A stretch of 64,000 nt of DNA from Cellvibrio mixtus subsp. mixtus J3-8 (GTDB taxonomy: Bacteria; Pseudomonadota; Gammaproteobacteria; Pseudomonadales; Cellvibrionaceae), in the NCBI RefSeq assembly GCF_000766945.1, contig NZ_KN266209.1, forward strand, positions 146,541-210,540, given 5' to 3'. Under the pieces are notes generated by a model. That model had not been told where the DNA came from. It worked only from the letters and a program-made list of their open reading frames with translations, and ran no database searches. The position numbers were made by a program, and so were the translations under genes. This document shows positions 22,075 through 59,722 of the stretch, piece by piece (the first letter of the stretch is position 1; each line of letters starts with the position of its first letter).

Positions 22075-24405
22075 TTATTGCAGCGCTTTTAAATAGTCGT
22101 GTACCCAGCGGGTAAAATCTGCCGCAGGTAATGGTTTGCTATACAAATAACCTTGTGCTGTATCGCAACCATATTGTTTTAACACCGTTTTAATGGCTTC
22201 GGACTCCACCCCTTCCGCGGTAATACTCAAACCCATCGTATGGCCCAGCTCAATGGTGGAGCGCACAATCAGTTGATCGTCCGCACTGGCGTCCAGATTT
22301 AAAATAAAGGATTTATCAATTTTTAATTCAGAAACCGGTAATTTTTTTAATTGCGATAAAGACGAATAGCCAGTACCAAAATCATCGATTGATAAGGTCA
22401 CTCCAAGGCTGCGCAGACGCTGTAAATTATGCAGGCATTTATCAGCTTCACGCATAATGGCACTTTCGGTAATTTCCAGGTAAAGATTTTCTGCCGGAAC
22501 ACGATTGGCTTGTAGTAATTCCGCTACGTATGCGGGCAAGTCATCTACCAATAAATCCAATGCAGATAAATTTACTGAACAGGTAATTTTTATTTTTTCA
22601 TCAAGCAGTTGGCGTAGCTGGGCAATCGCCGTTTTTAATACCCAGCGCGTTAACAAGGTTATTTGCCCGGAGCTCTCAATTACGCCAATAAACTCATCCG
22701 GCGCGACAAAACCCAATTCCGGATGACGCCAGCGCACCAGTGCTTCTGCACCCAGGGTATCCGGCTGTTCCAGATTTATTTTCGGTTGGTAATAAAGGCT
22801 GATATAGCCTGCGTGCAAAGAAGATTCAAATTCGCGGAATAAATGCAGGCGCCGCAAATGTTGTTCATCCCAGCCGGCTTGATACCAACAACTGTGTCGC
22901 TCACTAATGCGGCCTTCATTTAACGCCAAACTGGCGCGGCGCAATAAGGTTTCAGCTGAGTCAGCATCGGATGGATAAGCGGCAATGCCAATATTGACAT
23001 CAACCGATACCTGGATACCGCTTATGACCAGCGGTGTTTTAAACGCGCTGTGAATTAATTCAATGGTTTCACTGATAGCATCCGCATCGGCCGCCATCAT
23101 AATCGCAAGGAATTCATCACTACCCAAACGCAATACTTCACCGTGGGTAATGATGCGCGCTATTTTCTGCCCGACATCGCGCAATACGGCATCGCCAATT
23201 TCCTGGCTGAGCTCATCGTTCACCTGGGTGAAATTTTTAATATCCATGACGAGTAAATACACATTTTGTTTCACTGCCAATGAACGAGAAATTGCATTCT
23301 GCAATTCAGGAAAAATCCTGAGACGATTTGGTAAACCCGTCAGTGGATCGTGCTCTGATTGATAGAGCACTTGCTGTTCGCGCTCACCAATGGCTTTTTG
23401 CATACTGATAAATGCCTTGGCCAAATCCCCGAGTTCATCGTTGGATTGCACAGCGATGGGGGTTGCATAAAAACCGCCAGCGATGCGCCGGGCAATATCG
23501 GCAAGCAAAGTCACCGGTTTGGTAACACTGCGCGCAAGCATCCACGCAGCCAATGCAGCTACTAATGAAAACGTGAGTGCGAGGAAAAATAATTGCACAT
23601 TCAAACGTGAATAGGGTGCTAATACTTCACTCAGCGGAACTTGTAACACCGCGCGTACATTTTCATTTTGTCGCGCAGCAGGTACCGCTAGCGACATAAG
23701 GTCATCGTAAATAAATACTTCACCCAGGGCCGGGTGTTGTGGCAACTGCTTTAACAGGTCGCGCAAGTATTCAGCCTTCAATGTACCATTCAAATAACGC
23801 ATCTCTGTGCCATCGCGATGGATGAACGATACTTCCAAACCCGTTAATTTTTTTAGATCCAGGCTAAATTCTTTTTTGATTTCAAAACCCATTCCCGCAA
23901 GCCCGATAACTACTGGTGCTTTTACGGCATACATCACAAACTGGTAGGCGCGCCCATTCACACGGATAATATCGTAGGCTTGCCCTTTAGCCTTGGCTCG
24001 CGCCGTTAGCGCCAAAAATTCGTCATCTACTTGCAACGCAAAGTTCTGGTCGCTGGCAATGAGTTTTCCATGTTCGGTAATAAGCACACCAATATCAGCG
24101 GAGATACGCGCCGAGTGATTATTCAACGCTGAAATAATAGTTTTTTCATCCTGCGTTGTTACTGCTTCTTTAAAACCAAAATCTTCGGTGAGGATTTTTA
24201 CCGAGAGCGCCAGTTGCTCCACGTTTTTTTGCATGATGCGACTGAATAATTCACCGCCAGCCAACAATTCTGTCCGCGCGTTTTGGGTAACTGCCTTTTT
24301 AATAACTACACGTGTTGCCACATAAGAAATGGCTTCCAGTGTCACCACTAACCCCAGCAAAAACGCCAGCAGTTTTATGAGATAACTGATCCGTGGCATA
24401 GTCAT
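22075..24405 (-). CDS. Membrane GGDEF-EAL protein (c-di-GMP phosphodiesterase/cyclase)
   Basis: A 776-residue membrane signalling protein. TM1 (about 8-30) and TM2 (about 268-292) bracket a periplasmic sensor of about 235 residues, probably a double-Cache fold. HAMP (about 293-345), GGDEF (about 350-500) and EAL (about 520-770) domains follow. The EAL motifs look complete: EALVRW, VNLSA, LEITES, IDDFGTGYSS, KIDKSF and TAEGVES, so phosphodiesterase activity is likely. The cyclase motif reads GSDEF rather than GGDEF, so cyclase activity is doubtful. The gene is 22 bp downstream of the cupredoxin gene. Sensor location suits a periplasmic redox or copper signal, but the ligand is unknown. Confidence 0.9.
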   Translation of the reverse strand: MTMPRISYLIKLLAFLLGLVVTLEAISYVATRVVIKKAVTQNARTELLAGGELFSRIMQKNVEQLALSVKILTEDFGFKEAVTTQDEKTIISALNNHSARISADIGVLITEHGKLIASDQNFALQVDDEFLALTARAKAKGQAYDIIRVNGRAYQFVMYAVKAPVVIGLAGMGFEIKKEFSLDLKKLTGLEVSFIHRDGTEMRYLNGTLKAEYLRDLLKQLPQHPALGEVFIYDDLMSLAVPAARQNENVRAVLQVPLSEVLAPYSRLNVQLFFLALTFSLVAALAAWMLARSVTKPVTLLADIARRIAGGFYATPIAVQSNDELGDLAKAFISMQKAIGEREQQVLYQSEHDPLTGLPNRLRIFPELQNAISRSLAVKQNVYLLVMDIKNFTQVNDELSQEIGDAVLRDVGQKIARIITHGEVLRLGSDEFLAIMMAADADAISETIELIHSAFKTPLVISGIQVSVDVNIGIAAYPSDADSAETLLRRASLALNEGRISERHSCWYQAGWDEQHLRRLHLFREFESSLHAGYISLYYQPKINLEQPDTLGAEALVRWRHPELGFVAPDEFIGVIESSGQITLLTRWVLKTAIAQLRQLLDEKIKITCSVNLSALDLLVDDLPAYVAELLQANRVPAENLYLEITESAIMREADKCLHNLQRLRSLGVTLSIDDFGTGYSSLSQLKKLPVSELKIDKSFILNLDASADDQLIVRSTIELGHTMGLSITAEGVESEAIKTVLKQYGCDTAQGYLYSKPLPAADFTRWVHDYLKALQ

Positions 24406-25114: not shown

Positions 25115-26794
25115 TTACAAGCGTTGGCAGCGATTGCGCCCTCCGGATTTTGCGGTATACAAAGCCTGGTCTGCACGCTCGAATGCAGTTTCCAGTGAAT
25201 CGCTGGTTTTAAATTCGGTGACGCCGATTGAAACGGTAATCGTTAAGGGCTGATCTTTGTAATTGAATGCGGCGTTGGCGATAGCATCACGTACTTTTTC
25301 CAATACACCGAGTGCAGCCTGGCTATCGGTTTCCGGCATCAGCGCCACAAATTCTTCGCCGCCATAACGGCAAAAGAAATCAACTTCACGCAAGCGCTTG
25401 GCGATGGAGCGGCCAATCACTTTTATTACGCGATCACCCGCTTGATGCCCGAAAGTATCGTTGATGCGTTTGAAGTGATCGATATCAAAAATCGCCACAC
25501 TTAATGGCCGGCCATAACGCTGCCAGCGTTGGACTTCCACGTGGGCGCGTTCGTTATAAGCTTCGCGGTTGGGTAATTCGGTGAGCGCATCTTGCAATGC
25601 TTTTTTGCGTTGCACTTCAAGGCTGGTGCGATTTTTTTCTGCTTCGACTTCCATCGTTTTAATTTTTGCACCGAGCGTTTCCAACTGTAGTGCCAGGTGT
25701 TGCTGCGCATGATCCATGTTTTGATGCTGGTCGAGCGCCTGGCGAATATTTCCCAATTGCGATTTCACTTTGTCTTTGAGTTGATTCAGATCGGTTGCTT
25801 TTTCTGCGGAAGATTCCAGCTCGCCCATTTCACGTATCATGTCATCTTGCAATTTACGTGACGCTGCACGTTCATTTTGTGAATGTTTTACTGCACCGCC
25901 GAGTAATGAATAAATATCGGCGAGTTCTTCATTGACGTTTTTGAGGTAGCTGGCAAATGCCTGACTAGCGGCGAGGTAAGCTTCCATTACTAACGCGCGC
26001 ACTGATTCCAGTGCGGGGATTACTGCATCCGGCGCGATGCCTGCCGCCAATTTATTGCGCAACATCACAGCCCGGCTTTGCATAAGCACATCGTTTTCCA
26101 GGCTTTGTAAAATTTCATTGAGAATTCTGACTATTGCATCCAGATACGCCGGTTTTTGTTCCGTTGTTGAAATGGTCGCCGCTTTGGGGGCCGGGTCCGT
26201 GTTAACACCTGCGGGCAATGGCAAGGTATCGATATAATCGTCCGTATCAGATTCTGCTGCGCCCTGCTCATCCGCTTTGGCGGGTTTGGTTCCGAGGATT
26301 TTCCCGAGCAATCCAACCTTGGGCTGTTCGACTTCTTTTAATGCCTGCTGCTGGATATTTGCCAACTGTTGTAACAATGCCGGATACAACCGGATTTTTT
26401 TACTGCGCTGGGGCAGGTTTGCGAGGAAGTCACTTATCTCTTTGGTAACACCTTTGGACAGCTTGAACACACCCAATGCTTTGATGGTCTCGCTTAATGC
26501 GACAGTGATCTCTTTAGCGCCCTGCTCCCGGTGGGATTCGAAAGCCAGTGCGGCTTTTTCCAACTGCTCCAGGATTTTGTTCATTTCCATTGCGCTGGTT
26601 TCGCTGCGCAATTTTTCACGTAGCTGGCTCATGATGTTATCCAGGGTTTCATCCTGGCCATCAGCAGCGATGCTGACACGCACTAGCGCACTGCGCAGCA
26701 ATTCTTGCTGGCGGGTAAATTTTTGTTCCAATTGCTCCTGCTCATCCAGGGCATTGAGATACTTATCCCGCCAATTATTTTTATCGCCACTCAT
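25115..26794 (-). CDS. dgcP: Diguanylate cyclase, DgcP-like
   Basis: Synthesises c-di-GMP from two GTP. About 559 residues: a long helical N-terminal region (1-390), coiled-coil in parts, and a C-terminal GGDEF domain. The active site GGEEF is intact in RYGGEEF, and an inhibitory RxxD site (REVD) sits five residues upstream, so feedback control is likely. The N-terminus has no TM segment. Sequence style and position beside dsbA and cc4 match Pseudomonas dgcP, a cyclase I recall as polar and FimV-dependent. ATG 26794 gives the expected MSGDKNNWRDKY start; an upstream GTG at 26803 adds three residues. Confidence 0.87.
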   Translation of the reverse strand: MSGDKNNWRDKYLNALDEQEQLEQKFTRQQELLRSALVRVSIAADGQDETLDNIMSQLREKLRSETSAMEMNKILEQLEKAALAFESHREQGAKEITVALSETIKALGVFKLSKGVTKEISDFLANLPQRSKKIRLYPALLQQLANIQQQALKEVEQPKVGLLGKILGTKPAKADEQGAAESDTDDYIDTLPLPAGVNTDPAPKAATISTTEQKPAYLDAIVRILNEILQSLENDVLMQSRAVMLRNKLAAGIAPDAVIPALESVRALVMEAYLAASQAFASYLKNVNEELADIYSLLGGAVKHSQNERAASRKLQDDMIREMGELESSAEKATDLNQLKDKVKSQLGNIRQALDQHQNMDHAQQHLALQLETLGAKIKTMEVEAEKNRTSLEVQRKKALQDALTELPNREAYNERAHVEVQRWQRYGRPLSVAIFDIDHFKRINDTFGHQAGDRVIKVIGRSIAKRLREVDFFCRYGGEEFVALMPETDSQAALGVLEKVRDAIANAAFNYKDQPLTITVSIGVTEFKTSDSLETAFERADQALYTAKSGGRNRCQRL

Positions 26795-53909: not shown

Positions 53910-55043
53910 TTAATTAGCATCACCCTGATTAAACAAGGCTTTGATAAAGGGCTCAGCAGCAAATGGTTGAAGGTCTTCTATGGATTCACCCACACCGATA
54001 AAGCGCACCGGTAACCCGAATTTTTTGCTGAGCGCGAAAATTACCCCACCTTTAGCCGTGCCATCCAGCTTGGTCAACACGAGACCGGTAACACCGGCAG
54101 AGTCACGGAATTGCTCGGCCTGATTCACAGCGTTCTGGCCGGTACCCGCGTCCAACACCAGCAGGACTTCATGCGGTGCAGAATCATCTACCTTGGCCAT
54201 TACACGCTTAACTTTGGCGAGCTCTTCCATCAAATGGCTTTTGTTGTGCAGGCGGCCGGCGGTGTCGGCAATTACTACATCAATACCGCGCGCTTTGGCA
54301 GCATTTAACGCATCGTAGATAACCGATGCCGAATCAGCACCTGTATGCTGTGCGATGACAGGAACATTATTGCGCTCCCCCCATACTTGCAGTTGTTCGA
54401 CTGCGGCAGCACGGAAAGTATCCCCCGCCGCCAACATGACTTTTTTGCCTTCATTTTGCAGGCGCTTGGCAAGCTTGCCGATGGTTGTGGTTTTTCCCAC
54501 GCCATTTACACCAACAACCAGGATCACGTAAGGAGCCCTGGTAGCATCCACCACCAATGGTTGCTCAACCGGACGAAGCAAATCTGCGAGCAATTCGCGC
54601 AGGGCTTTGTAGAGTGCATCAGCATCATTGAGCTGCTTACGAGCCACGCGTGCGGTGAGGTTATCGATAATCTCACTGGTTGCATCCATACCCACATCGG
54701 CAAGCAACAGCTGTGTTTCCAATTCTTCGAATAATTCTTCGTCGATGTTTTTACGACCGAGGAAAAGATTACCCAACCCTTCCGCAAAATGGCTGGATGT
54801 GCGGCTCAAACCCTGTTTGATGCGCGCGAAAAAGCCAAGCCTGGCAGGTGCCGTTTCTACCGGAGCGGGCTCTTCCGTTACTGCCAATTGCTCTGGATTA
54901 GCAGCGTGCGGCGGGATTTGCGGTTGCGATTCCGGCTGTACTTCCGATGCTTCAGGTTGTGCAACCGCGGTTGCTTCAGGAGTAGCTTCTACCGTTTTTG
55001 CGGCATCCGGTTTTTCAGATTTTTTGAACAGATTAAAAAACAT
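53910..55043 (-). CDS. ftsY: Signal recognition particle receptor FtsY
   Basis: SRP receptor GTPase for co-translational membrane targeting, 377 residues. An acidic A domain (about 1-75, rich in Glu, Ala and Pro) is followed by the NG domain: GVNGVGKTTTIGK, DTFRAAAVEQL, DTAGRL and TKLDGTAKGG. ATG 55043 gives MFFNLFKK, the usual start; 19 extra residues in the longer ORF are not supported. It is divergent from rsmD. Confidence 0.96.
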   Translation of the reverse strand: MFFNLFKKSEKPDAAKTVEATPEATAVAQPEASEVQPESQPQIPPHAANPEQLAVTEEPAPVETAPARLGFFARIKQGLSRTSSHFAEGLGNLFLGRKNIDEELFEELETQLLLADVGMDATSEIIDNLTARVARKQLNDADALYKALRELLADLLRPVEQPLVVDATRAPYVILVVGVNGVGKTTTIGKLAKRLQNEGKKVMLAAGDTFRAAAVEQLQVWGERNNVPVIAQHTGADSASVIYDALNAAKARGIDVVIADTAGRLHNKSHLMEELAKVKRVMAKVDDSAPHEVLLVLDAGTGQNAVNQAEQFRDSAGVTGLVLTKLDGTAKGGVIFALSKKFGLPVRFIGVGESIEDLQPFAAEPFIKALFNQGDAN

Positions 55044-55152
55044 AGTCGTGATCTGGGGAGTGTCGGGGAATAATCCAGTTGGCCGAGTCATTCCAGCCAA
55101 GGCGATAAAGGCGCTATCCTACCACTTATATTCACCTCTGCGAGCGAACACC

Positions 55153-55755
55153 TTGTCCAGACACGGCGCCAAACCTGCAAAATCCCCCGCAAATCCACCC
55201 AAAGGCAGCAATCAGCTGCGCATTATTGGCGGCACTTGGCGCGGGCGAAAATTAAACTTTCCCGATGTGGATGGCTTGCGCCCTACCGGAGACCGCCTGC
55301 GCGAAACCCTGTTTAACTGGCTCGCACCAGATATTCAGGATGCACGTTGCCTGGATTTGTTTGCCGGTTCGGGAGCCTTGGGGTTGGAAGCATTGTCGCG
55401 TGGCGCAGCAGGATGTGTTTTTCTGGAGCGCGACCCGCTGGCGGCTAAAGAATTGGAAAAAAACCTGAGGCTGTTAAATGCAACCACCGGCAAGCTTTTA
55501 TTACAGGACGCCTTATCCTGGTTGAAAGGAATACAAGGGCAGCAATTTGATCTGGTTTTTATTGACCCCCCTTTTCAACTGGCCTTGTGGCAACACAGTT
55601 TTGATTTGCTGGAGGACGGTAATTTTCTGGCGGAGGGTGCGCTGGTATATGTCGAGTGCCCCAAAAATACTATCTATCAAGTACCAGAAAGCTGGAGCAT
55701 CCATAAAGAAAAAATAACCGGTAGCAATATCTACCGGCTATTTGTCAAAGGCTGA
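55153..55755 (+). CDS. rsmD: 16S rRNA (guanine(966)-N(2))-methyltransferase RsmD
   Basis: Methylates G966 of 16S rRNA. The core shows RIIGGTWRGRKL, RPTGDRLRETLFNWL, DLFAGSGALGLEALSRGA and the catalytic DPPF. No ATG or GTG lies close to the core. TTG at 55153 yields 200 residues, the family length, and is my choice; the open frame upstream overlaps ftsY antisense. It is divergent from ftsY, as in E. coli. Confidence 0.9.
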   Translation: MSRHGAKPAKSPANPPKGSNQLRIIGGTWRGRKLNFPDVDGLRPTGDRLRETLFNWLAPDIQDARCLDLFAGSGALGLEALSRGAAGCVFLERDPLAAKELEKNLRLLNATTGKLLLQDALSWLKGIQGQQFDLVFIDPPFQLALWQHSFDLLEDGNFLAEGALVYVECPKNTIYQVPESWSIHKEKITGSNIYRLFVKG

Positions 55756-55767
55756 CCGACGCGGGGG

Positions 55768-57327
55768 TTAGCCGCCGGGGCGCAAATCCATGAACTTGCT
55801 ATAAAGCCCGTTTTTATCGAAAGCGGCAATTTGGAAAACGTAATTACCTTCAAGCCAGGGAATATCGTAATAAATAGTATTCGGATCCTCGATACTCACG
55901 TAGGTGTAATTGGTATCGCCAGACTTGCGATAGCGAATCTCATAACCCCCGATTTCTTCAGTGTCCAGGCTCGACATATCTTCCCTCGCCGTAGGGACAT
56001 TCCAGCGCAGGTGCACCGGGCCAACCACATCGACAGCCGCACTGGAAGACTCTGCTGCACTACTGGGCTGGCTACTGGTAGAAGATGAAGACGAACTGGA
56101 TACCTTGGGCGCACTGCTGGAAACACTGGATACTGAAGATTTACTGGATGAACTTGAGCTGCTACTGGAACTGGAAACACTGGTTACATCCGTGCTGGGG
56201 GTTGCACCGGCAGCAGCGGGTTCAATTTTAAACCAGTTGATGTTGTAACCCTTCACAAGTGCCGTCATCCCAAAAATATGTGGCCCCGCTGGCAGGGTTA
56301 TGATGCGTTCCACATCAACAAACTTTTGGAAGTTAGCTGTTTTAGGCACGATAACTGTATCGTATTTTGCGCTGCCATCAGCTTCATGGAACGAGAAACT
56401 CCCCCCCCCATACAAGCTCGATACCCGATAGGTCACCTTATAATTTCCTGTCGTGGGAATATCGATCACAGTGTTTTCGTAGGATAACCAATCCCCCTTG
56501 TCGATAGCACCGATATTGAAGCCGCCGCCGGTATCAGTCGTGGCTTCCGTAATAGTGCCACTTTGTGCAGCAAAATCTTCTGCCTGAATAGTGACAGGGA
56601 GGGCAGCACCTTTTAACTCAAGCTTGAACCAATTGATATTGGAGCCACTTTTAGTTGCCTTGATACCCAATTTATGCGTTCCCGGCGGTAAGGTAATCGT
56701 GCTTTCTATATCGATCCATTTCTGGAAATTGCCGGTTTTGGGCACAGTAACCACATCGTATTTCACGTCGGAATCCAATTCATGCAAATAGAAACTGGCG
56801 CCGCCATATAAGCTGGATACGCGATAAGTCACCTTATAAGTCGCGGGATATGCAAGCTCGATAACATTATTGCCATAAGCCATCCAGTCACCCGCTTCAA
56901 GCGAGCCAATATTAGAGCCGCCACCGACATCCGTAGTCGGCTCCACTTTTATCCCTTGCATCGTAGAGTAATCTTCCGCCTGAATAGTTAGCGATGCAGG
57001 AGCATTACGAGTACCGGAAGGTACTGTTTGGGCTGCCGCCCCCCCGGCCACGCTCATCAAAGGTGCGCACAAGCTCATCACCAGCGTCATTTTGCGCAAA
57101 TACATTTGCCAATTCAGGCCGCGCTTCAATTGTTGGCGGGAGATGAAACCCAGATCGATCAGAATTTCACCGATACATGTAGCATCCATGGCATCCTTAT
57201 CGGTGTGACTCAGCCCTACCCGCCTCTGTTTTTGTTCGGCAATTGCGAGTTGCAACTGGTCCGCGCTGATGAGTCCCTTCTCAAGCAATATATCCCCTAA
57301 GCGGGTTGCTTTGGCCTTACCTATCAT
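55768..57327 (-). CDS. MshEN-like / double CBM6 / poly-Ser / FnIII fusion protein
   Basis: A 519-residue protein of unusual architecture. Residues 9-32 match the 24-residue MshEN c-di-GMP motif completely (RLG, LL, G, LI, L, I, Q at the consensus positions). Residues 51-74 are a second copy with Cys and Ile in place of the initial Arg-Leu. Residues 75-100 form a signal- or anchor-like hydrophobic stretch (ending GGAAAQT). Two CBM6-type domains follow (about 112-235 and 243-366; both with IQAED, GDW and NWFK), then a poly-Ser linker (about 378-425) and an FnIII-like domain (about 430-519). No catalytic domain is present. If the internal segment spans the membrane, the MshEN part would be cytoplasmic and the CBM6 part external. 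It lies between rsmD and coaD without partners. Confidence 0.82.
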   Translation of the reverse strand: MIGKAKATRLGDILLEKGLISADQLQLAIAEQKQRRVGLSHTDKDAMDATCIGEILIDLGFISRQQLKRGLNWQMYLRKMTLVMSLCAPLMSVAGGAAAQTVPSGTRNAPASLTIQAEDYSTMQGIKVEPTTDVGGGSNIGSLEAGDWMAYGNNVIELAYPATYKVTYRVSSLYGGASFYLHELDSDVKYDVVTVPKTGNFQKWIDIESTITLPPGTHKLGIKATKSGSNINWFKLELKGAALPVTIQAEDFAAQSGTITEATTDTGGGFNIGAIDKGDWLSYENTVIDIPTTGNYKVTYRVSSLYGGGSFSFHEADGSAKYDTVIVPKTANFQKFVDVERIITLPAGPHIFGMTALVKGYNINWFKIEPAAAGATPSTDVTSVSSSSSSSSSSSKSSVSSVSSSAPKVSSSSSSSTSSQPSSAAESSSAAVDVVGPVHLRWNVPTAREDMSSLDTEEIGGYEIRYRKSGDTNYTYVSIEDPNTIYYDIPWLEGNYVFQIAAFDKNGLYSKFMDLRPGG

Positions 57328-57507
57328 TTTCTACCTCCAACGGAGAAACCACGCAGTCGTTTAAGACAACAACACTTACTTTCTGAGTTTAGTAAGATAA
57401 TCATCAGCGTGTGCGTTGTTTAATAGACAAAATAGTGCTTTACAGTCGGCTGGTAAGTGCGGACTTATTTTTGTACCATGCCCGCCCCGTCTGGCGTCGA
57501 TGAATAA

Positions 57508-57999
<492 letters not shown>

Positions 58000-58812
58000 C
58001 TACTTCTGGCAGTCCACACAATAAACCGTGGTGCGATCATTCATACGCACCTCTTTGAGTGGCTTTTTACAACGATTACAAGGTTCACCACCGCGGCCAT
58101 AAACCAACAATTGCTGCTTGAAATAACCGGGTTTGCCATCCCCACCTACAAAATCGCGCAATGTTGTCCCACCCTGATCGATGGAACGCTGCAATACAAA
58201 ACGGATATCACGCACCAAATCCTCACAATTTTTGCGCGTCAGCGACCCTGCTTTACGAATAGGTTTGATACTCGCCATAAACAAGGATTCGTTGGCATAG
58301 ATGTTCCCCACCCCCACGACAATTTTGCTATCCATTAGAAATTGCTTAACCGCCTGGCTGCGCTTGCGGCTGCGCTCAAACAAATATTCGGCAGTAAACG
58401 CCTCTGTCAGCGGTTCAGGCCCAAGCCCTGCCAATAGCGAATGGGTATCCGGGTCACCCTCTACCCACAACAGGCAACCAAAACGACGCGGGTCGCAGTA
58501 TCGCAATACACGCTTGCCAAAAACCAAATCAAAATGATCGTGGAATAACGCAGGCTCCTCCGGACTGACAATGCGCAAACTGCCTGACATACCCAAGTGG
58601 ATTAATGCATGCCCATGACCAAAATCGAGCAACAGGTACTTACCACGCCGGCGTGCGCCAACAAGCTTTTTACCTTGCAACAACGCGGCAAGATCGGCTG
58701 GAATTGGCCAGCGCAAGCGCGGCTGGCGGATGACAATCTCTGTCACTTTGTGACCGATAATATGCGGACTAATACCGCGCAAAGTCGTCTCAACTTCGGG
58801 TAACTCAGGCAT
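58000..58812 (-). CDS. mutM: Formamidopyrimidine-DNA glycosylase MutM
   Basis: Removes 8-oxoguanine from DNA. It has 270 residues, with N-terminal PELPEVETT (catalytic Pro and Glu), the lesion-binding region and a C-terminal zinc finger CNRC...CVDC. A helix-two-turn-helix motif VGVGNIYANE is present. It ends directly at the coaD stop. Confidence 0.96.
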   Translation of the reverse strand: MPELPEVETTLRGISPHIIGHKVTEIVIRQPRLRWPIPADLAALLQGKKLVGARRRGKYLLLDFGHGHALIHLGMSGSLRIVSPEEPALFHDHFDLVFGKRVLRYCDPRRFGCLLWVEGDPDTHSLLAGLGPEPLTEAFTAEYLFERSRKRSQAVKQFLMDSKIVVGVGNIYANESLFMASIKPIRKAGSLTRKNCEDLVRDIRFVLQRSIDQGGTTLRDFVGGDGKPGYFKQQLLVYGRGGEPCNRCKKPLKEVRMNDRTTVYCVDCQK

Positions 58813-59077: not shown

Positions 59078-59722
59078 ATGAAAAACCTGTTGCAGACGCT
59101 GTTATTGCCGTTAATGTTCCTGGCAACCAGCGCCTCGGCGTTACCTATAGTTTCTTTATCTGCCGCCGGTCAAACGACTACATCGGTAGCAGATGCTATC
59201 ACCATCGATTTTAACAGCGGCTGCGGTTATGCCAGTTGCAGTGGCGATTTCGCATTGGTAAACGGCAGTCAAAGTGGTTTGTATGCACAACCATTTGGTG
59301 TTGATTCCCAATACCTGAGCGTACCAAATCCCTCCGCCACCGATTTAAGTGCAGTGTTTTCCCTCGGTACTGCAGCTAACTATTTCGGCTTATTTTGGGG
59401 CTCGATTGATAGCTACAACTTCATCAGTTTCTACCTTGATAACGCGCTGGTAGCCAGCTATTCAGGCAGCGCAATTGTGGGCCAGTTTGCCGATGGCAAT
59501 CAACTAAGCTATGCCTCCAACCGCTACATCAATTTCGACTTTGGCGGCGACAGTTTCAATAGCGTCAAATTAACCAGCAATGGCTACGCATTTGAAAGTG
59601 ATAACCATGCCTTCCGCAAATTGACTACCGTCACAGAGCCGGCCACAGCAGCGTTATTATTGTTGGGTTTAGTTGGTTTGGCACTGGCCCGCCGCCAGGT
59701 AAAAACCATTTCGATTAAATAA
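59078..59722 (+). CDS. PEP-CTERM sorting domain protein
   Basis: A 214-residue exported protein. A signal peptide (1-21, ASA-LP) is followed by a beta-rich body of unknown function (NFISFYLDN, YINFDFGG) and a C-terminal sorting tail TEPATAALLLLGLVGLALARR: an EP motif, TM helix and basic end recognised by exosortase. Pro-Glu-Pro is varied to Thr-Glu-Pro. An exosortase is required but is not in the window. It has a sigma-54-type promoter and a strong terminator. Confidence 0.85.
   Translation: MKNLLQTLLLPLMFLATSASALPIVSLSAAGQTTTSVADAITIDFNSGCGYASCSGDFALVNGSQSGLYAQPFGVDSQYLSVPNPSATDLSAVFSLGTAANYFGLFWGSIDSYNFISFYLDNALVASYSGSAIVGQFADGNQLSYASNRYINFDFGGDSFNSVKLTSNGYAFESDNHAFRKLTTVTEPATAALLLLGLVGLALARRQVKTISIK

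Follow-up and report, generated by a model that had tools for sequence, protein, structure and literature searches.

In the 64,000-nucleotide stretch of Cellvibrio mixtus DNA analysed here (the window), one gene encodes a 519-aa protein (the window protein) whose N-terminus may be an exchangeable c-di-GMP-binding signal-peptide module gating the export of a surface protein. We regard this assignment as evenly balanced; its anatomy was read from the sequence, and we infer the gating. Sequence comparison demonstrated the homology to MshEN, the immediate junction of this domain with an h-region, SPase I-type or lipobox sites after it, selection, conservation, and exchange with other signals. On this evidence the window protein is one member of a class in which MshEN leads straight into a signal peptide and on to unrelated exported proteins.

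The gene starts with ATG and is flanked by rsmD and coaD; its features are collected in Table 1. Pfam recognised two stretches of the window protein as CBM6 (PF03422, E 4.5e-48), and its matches up to E 1 contained no catalytic family, as the first-pass annotation had stated. Neither a type II secretion or type IV pilus ATPase domain nor HAMP, GGDEF, EAL, or anti-sigma domains were among the Pfam matches. The proposed make-up of CBM6, CBM6, polySer, and FnIII was likewise borne out; the Pfam search gave no match for the FnIII part, which was assigned by fold search. A basic n-region, an h-region, and a small-x-Ala site were all present as sequence patterns, and the AxA site (AAA, residues 97-99) placed a candidate cleavage, by pattern, at A99/Q100. 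An Rfam search of window positions 54500-58500 detected no c-di-GMP riboswitch or other RNA up to E 0.5.

Table 1 Features of the window protein gene, in window positions
Feature	Residues	Coordinates	Strand	Basis or remark
Whole gene, 519 aa		55768..57327	minus (57327 -> 55768)	ORF; order: MshEN, signal peptide, CBM6, CBM6, polySer, FnIII
Shine-Dalgarno GGAGGT		57333..57338	minus	5 bases upstream of ATG; read from sequence
MshEN motif I (RLGDILLEKGLISADQLQLAIAEQ)	9-32	57232..57303	minus	NF053729 and published consensus
Inter-motif spacer, 18 residues	33-50	57178..57231	minus	Sequence; MshE has 5
MshEN motif II	51-74	57106..57177	minus	Cys for Arg; Gly and Gln retained
Signal-peptide-like segment	75-99	57031..57105	minus	Basic n-region, h-region; hydropathy and site test
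CBM6 number 1	116-237	56617..56982	minus	Pfam PF03422
CBM6 number 2	245-369	56221..56595	minus	Pfam; near PDB 1uxz (Cellulase B), phmmer 2.1e-36
Ser-rich linker	~380-431	56035..56190	minus	Sequence
FnIII domain	432-519	55771..56034	minus	AF2 model mean pLDDT 82.7; Foldseek FnIII best E 7.5e-4

NF053729, the NCBIfam model of the c-di-GMP motif, scored 51.1 bits against the window protein (E 8.4e-14; cut-off 38). When an alignment profile was compared with solved structures, MshE was matched at 1.5e-11 and PilF at 1e-18. AlphaFold2 modelled residues 1-110 as a helical bundle (mean pLDDT 71.2), and the first seven Foldseek hits of this model were GSPII-B structures of MshE or PilF with c-di-GMP, the top hit giving 2.6 A over 68 columns at an E of only 0.03. 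Because of the NF053729 score, the profile hits on MshE and PilF, and the c-di-GMP complexes retrieved by Foldseek, the likeness to MshEN was judged not to be due to chance. The last helix of the model (64-94) continued from MshEN into the h-region, with pLDDT dropping to 63 and 45 in residues 81-100.

The published MshEN consensus, as given in the available part of its source, is RLGxx(L/V/I)(L/V/I)xxG(L/V/I)(L/V/I)xxxxLxxxLxxQ. Motif I had been described as matching at every consensus position; this held for all but one, the last Leu being replaced conservatively by Ile29. The second copy at 51-74 was confirmed, with Cys for Arg, Ile for the next Leu, and Phe at the L/V/I position after Gly. 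The spacer did not conform: 18 residues were found, against 5 in MshE and in many other class members; the MshEN literature, in its available parts, does not state this length as a requirement. Since motif II is without its Arg, c-di-GMP binding by the window protein is uncertain, and the affinity may therefore be lower. From the portions of the literature at hand, Ser at this place abolished binding in a PilF construct, which apparently also keeps Ala for the motif II Gly, whereas in MshE the replacement of charged residues, Arg9 among them, reduced binding about fivefold at most. The statements on MshEN and c-di-GMP draw on parts of PMC5013675, PMC12002112, PMC12943098, PMC8789108, PMC8335546, PMC3174259, and PMC7122816. 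The window genome contains 44 GGDEF matches; two GGDEF matches lie within the window (22909-23355 and 25130-25600). MshEN-type motifs were also seen in this genome on a 305-aa tyrosine-kinase-like protein (G000:C4:107483-107641, L034) and a 741-aa CheA-like protein (G000:C8:156035-156229, L035), the kind of protein being judged by eye.

Read from Met75 onward, the protein would begin with a normal signal peptide, and the MshEN part might accordingly be an untranslated stretch or a relic; translation from such an internal Met in most homologues was a possibility raised in the first-pass annotation. Met occurs at this position in only 9 of 84 tails, and the upstream start lies behind GGAGG or GGAG in all 12 relatives from named records. 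Furthermore, the dN/dS of the MshEN part among rsmD-coaD orthologues was 0.04-0.13 in the six of ten pairs with computable dS (dS was about 2 in two of the six and saturated in four of the ten). These three results ruled out the internal start, and we give the relic reading next to no credence. In the four closest pairs the signal segment was as conserved as MshEN (pN 0.00-0.07), but this did not hold for all pairs, as window versus L102 showed (dN 0.29, dN/dS 0.31).

Of 21 genus genomes, including that of the window, 20 had the N-terminal 105 residues; G015 was the exception. Of the 13 rsmD-coaD slots inspected, in the window and at 12 other loci, 12 encode a protein that opens with MshEN and the signal and closes with FnIII; by eye, the middle is variable, ranging from nothing to an extra FnIII-like part or several CBM6. 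The slot of G012 holds an FnIII protein of 142 aa that has a plain lipoprotein-type signal but no MshEN, and whose FnIII is the same as that of the window protein (55% identity). Because the MshEN part evolves under purifying selection, is preceded by a Shine-Dalgarno site of its own, and persists across the genus, the fusion of MshEN, signal, and CBM6 is real and conserved. The earlier proposal that MshEN, an export-type signal, and glycan-binding domains are joined in one protein was thereby upheld, and homologues keep the fusion. A smaller paralogue consisting of MshEN, lipobox, polySer, and FnIII was found in the window genome (C1:697150) and in other genomes, and in all ten small genus paralogues read the signal ends in ACGGG, a lipoprotein-type site. 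None of the genus rows compiled had the motif II Arg. The small lipoprotein-type MshEN-FnIII paralogue (L113, L114, L122-L125, and L131) often had rimO, a type IV pilin-like gene, or both nearby.

A search of the order with a profile of MshEN plus signal gave a short ORF whose match reaches the signal part in at least 49 of 390 genomes, the window's own included; this is a count of listed rows, in which G065 is provisional and G057, G203, G339, and G409 form an odd half-repeat group. Among 369 genomes of the taxonomic class, the matches listed reached the signal part in at least four besides the window's own, three of them outside the order. Among 398 genomes of the phylum, none of the matches listed from outside the order did so. 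The proteins compiled numbered 108; two motifs were recognised in 83, of which 67 remained after duplicate removal. A looser rule added 20 of the other 25, leaving out L136 and L258 (ATPase-type), L267 (non-signal), L162, and L163; L164 and L262, relatives of the last two, stayed in the tail set. Dropping L158 and L166 (truncated) and L268 (non-signal) left 84 tails with 40 non-redundant representatives. The L257 locus had no ORF and was not in the set, and 13 of 17 loci of MshEN ATPases fitted the pattern and served as controls.

The elements of these tails came in a uniform order, in which three residues separate the motif II Gln from a basic residue, followed by the h-region, usually Pro, and then a small-x-Ala site or lipobox. 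An h-region was present in 40 of 40 representative tails (mean hydropathy at least 1.62, against at most 1.3 in the 13 ATPase controls), the basic residue four after motif II Gln in 39, and Pro after the h-region in 36. A small-x-Ala site or lipobox was likewise found in 39, where 22.6 of 40 would be expected from shuffled tails by this lenient pattern. The profiles used to gather the class include the signal region, so the h-region finding and the uniformity are in part a result of selection. NF053729 exceeded its cut-off in all ten diverse class members chosen from profile hits. In a 21-row class alignment, both motif Gly residues, the last motif II Leu, and motif II Gln were invariant, and motif I Arg and Gln were present at 90% or more. 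The motif II Arg was kept in only 10 of 38 class rows; the canonical five-residue spacer occurs in many members, and several have both Arg residues.

A tree was built from 48 columns with 38 of the 40 class representatives and 34 other rows; in it the class clustered with 2 label changes against a shuffled mean of 24.3. Two long-branch comparison rows that had fallen beside class rows (L032 and L192) were left out, so the clustering looks cleaner; with both included, and with the window row mis-cut, there were 5 label changes over three groups (shuffled mean 31.4). Since the tree rows were cut by a pattern demanding the motif Gly and restricting the motif end letters, the invariance of these positions in the trees is uninformative. 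The tree clusters the class, yet it resolves no single origin of the module. Relatives with extra or partial MshEN half-repeats ahead of a hydrophobic segment were also observed (L216, L217, L259, and L260).

The cargo within the genus is CBM6/FnIII. L208 carries FnIII after a Pro/Glu-rich linker (Pfam fn3 E 6e-4, below cut-off), and another kind of cargo is a domain with weak FilA/DUF6160 likeness, also below cut-off. In G557, L212 is a putative fimbrial subunit adjoining genes for a PapD-like chaperone and a TcfC/CooC-type usher. It has a paralogue in the same gene cluster, likewise a putative fimbrial subunit (35% identity, E 1e-19), with a plain signal peptide in place of the MshEN-signal module; neither matched the Pfam fimbrial families. 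Since a plain signal replaces the module in this paralogue and in the positional orthologue of G012, the sequences establish that it is exchangeable with ordinary signal peptides. A short class member in G044 (L116) stands at the head of another chaperone-usher gene pair, and one in G046 (L117) has curlin, csgE, and csgF genes at a distance of about 4-5 kb. Of the 24 loci inspected outside the genus, only these 3 had surface-fibre genes nearby, the rest being without this link (most judged by eye).

PA3740 of Pseudomonas aeruginosa, called a swarming motility protein, is counted among the MshEN proteins in the available part of the MshEN paper, and its c-di-GMP binding has been reported in partly available text with the putative motif LKKALKKQTNLR. 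L290 and L291 carry LAKALKKQTNLR and LSKALKKQTNLR directly ahead of the h-region, and each matched 11 of the 12 residues of the PA3740 c-di-GMP-binding peptide. The exact 12-mer was absent from 30 translated loci, out of 38 matching genomes. PA3740 thus very probably belongs to the MshEN-signal class, to judge from these peptides. It differs from the window protein in its exported part, and the accessible portions of its literature do not mention a signal peptide. Its gene order, which we take to be rplS ... xerD, dsbC, resembles the L199/L200 locus.

We propose that the N-terminal ~100 residues act as a c-di-GMP-receptor signal peptide. The four-helix bundle of MshEN would fold in the cytoplasm, and its last helix would continue as the signal peptide of the exported glycan-binding surface protein. 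Whether the adjoining signal helix is free for Sec engagement and cleavage could then depend on the ligand state of MshEN. Cytoplasmic c-di-GMP would thereby gate export of the CBM6/FnIII portion, and signal peptidase would then free this portion from MshEN. The broader version, in which c-di-GMP switches Sec export or cleavage of its carrier and the module has moved among glycan-binding proteins, putative fimbrial subunits, lipoproteins, and others across one gammaproteobacterial order and a few relatives, is put forward tentatively, as falling a little short of an even chance. The gating is counted against by the absence of motif II Arg from the genus rows, the unusual 18-residue spacer, the low confidence of the predicted signal helix, and the scarcity of surface-fibre neighbours. 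Deletion of PA3740 also counts against it: according to the part of the report available, biofilm was not lowered in fleS/fleR mutants with raised c-di-GMP.

The main rival to an export-gating module is an uncleaved transmembrane receptor, which we consider unlikely: a signal anchor would make the protein a bitopic inner-membrane c-di-GMP receptor with CBM6/FnIII in the periplasm, signalling across the membrane either inside-out, as LapD does, or by RsgI-like outside-in glycan sensing. The single continuous helix of the AlphaFold2 model, though of falling confidence, would suit such an anchor, as would the strong conservation of the hydrophobic segment in the four close pairs, uncommon in signal peptides that are to be discarded. 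The cleavage-type sites in nearly all tails, the lipoprotein-type site in every small paralogue read, and the presumed need of a fimbrial subunit for release argue against it. The signal segments terminate in small-x-Ala sites or, in the paralogous group, lipoboxes, and we therefore favour release by cleavage over permanent anchoring. The one-protein c-di-GMP device envisaged in the first-pass annotation thus keeps its conserved fusion of MshEN, signal, and glycan-binding domains, while the anchoring it had allowed for looks less likely than cleavage. Cleavage might also yield two products, the MshEN-signal fragment persisting as a small inner-membrane c-di-GMP receptor and the exported part acting alone. 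The sites after the module and the conservation of the fragment are consistent with this, but it leaves the joining of one module to so many kinds of cargo without a reason, and we rate it as improbable. Slightly less improbable, and still below the anchored receptor, is that MshEN serves as an address tag by which the precursor docks, as the GspE/PilB ATPases do, on the platform of a type II secretion system or type IV pilus, with c-di-GMP secondary. The known presence of MshEN on the ATPases of these systems, the general experience that polySer-CBM proteins are typical type II cargo, and the small paralogues near rimO and pilin-like genes in several genomes point that way; the conserved ligand-contacting Gln and Gly residues do not, nor do the lipoprotein-type members and those beside chaperone-usher genes, for which type II secretion would not be expected.

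The export-gating reading can be set beside known systems. MshEN occurs on type II secretion and type IV pilus ATPases, according to the available literature. The window protein shares with the MshEN (GSPII/T2SSE_N) of MshE, PilB, PilF, and NfrB the two-motif helical c-di-GMP-binding domain, its fold, and most ligand contacts; there, however, the domain lies inside cytoplasmic ATPases or enzymes, whereas in the window protein it abuts the signal peptide of an exported protein, with the longer spacer and without the motif II Arg. In the LapD/LapG/LapA system, the fate of a surface adhesin depends on cytoplasmic c-di-GMP, which resembles the proposed gating. Unlike in the window protein, receptor, protease, and adhesin are separate there, and the LapD receptor is not known to be of the MshEN type. 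The RsgI anti-sigma sensors of Clostridium thermocellum, as described in partly available text, similarly combine a cytoplasmic regulatory N-terminus, a membrane helix, and a substrate-sensing exterior. They differ in having an anti-sigma domain and proteolytic transmembrane signalling, and are not known to have a c-di-GMP domain. We know of no ligand-binding domain in the extended signal peptides of autotransporters, in which the MshEN-signal module differs from them. Those peptides are, like that of the window protein, exceptionally long N-terminal Sec signals, according to the part of the source available (PMC2805444). The titles and abstract openings listed for MshEN, c-di-GMP, and PA3740 gave no description of MshEN joined to a signal peptide, which does not prove its absence from print.

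c-di-GMP acts on transcription, motors, polysaccharide synthases, and a periplasmic protease. If the proposed gating is true, direct control of one protein's export via its own signal peptide would be a new c-di-GMP route, and a role would be suggested for PA3740 and other MshEN proteins that carry uncharacterised domains. The module can be tested by fusion to any reporter.

Two further kinds of protein were noted by eye. Past coaD and mutM from the MshEN gene, window positions 59078-59722 encode a secreted 214-aa protein with a PEP-CTERM-like C-terminus. In addition, a set of MshEN-signal proteins of 148-195 aa (L117, L151, L154, L155, L170, L171, L235, L238, L239, L241, L242, L247, and L264) has a C-terminal amphipathic strand with a terminal aromatic residue (for example ELTMRF, VEVKVFF, VNVSIKF), like an outer-membrane beta-signal.
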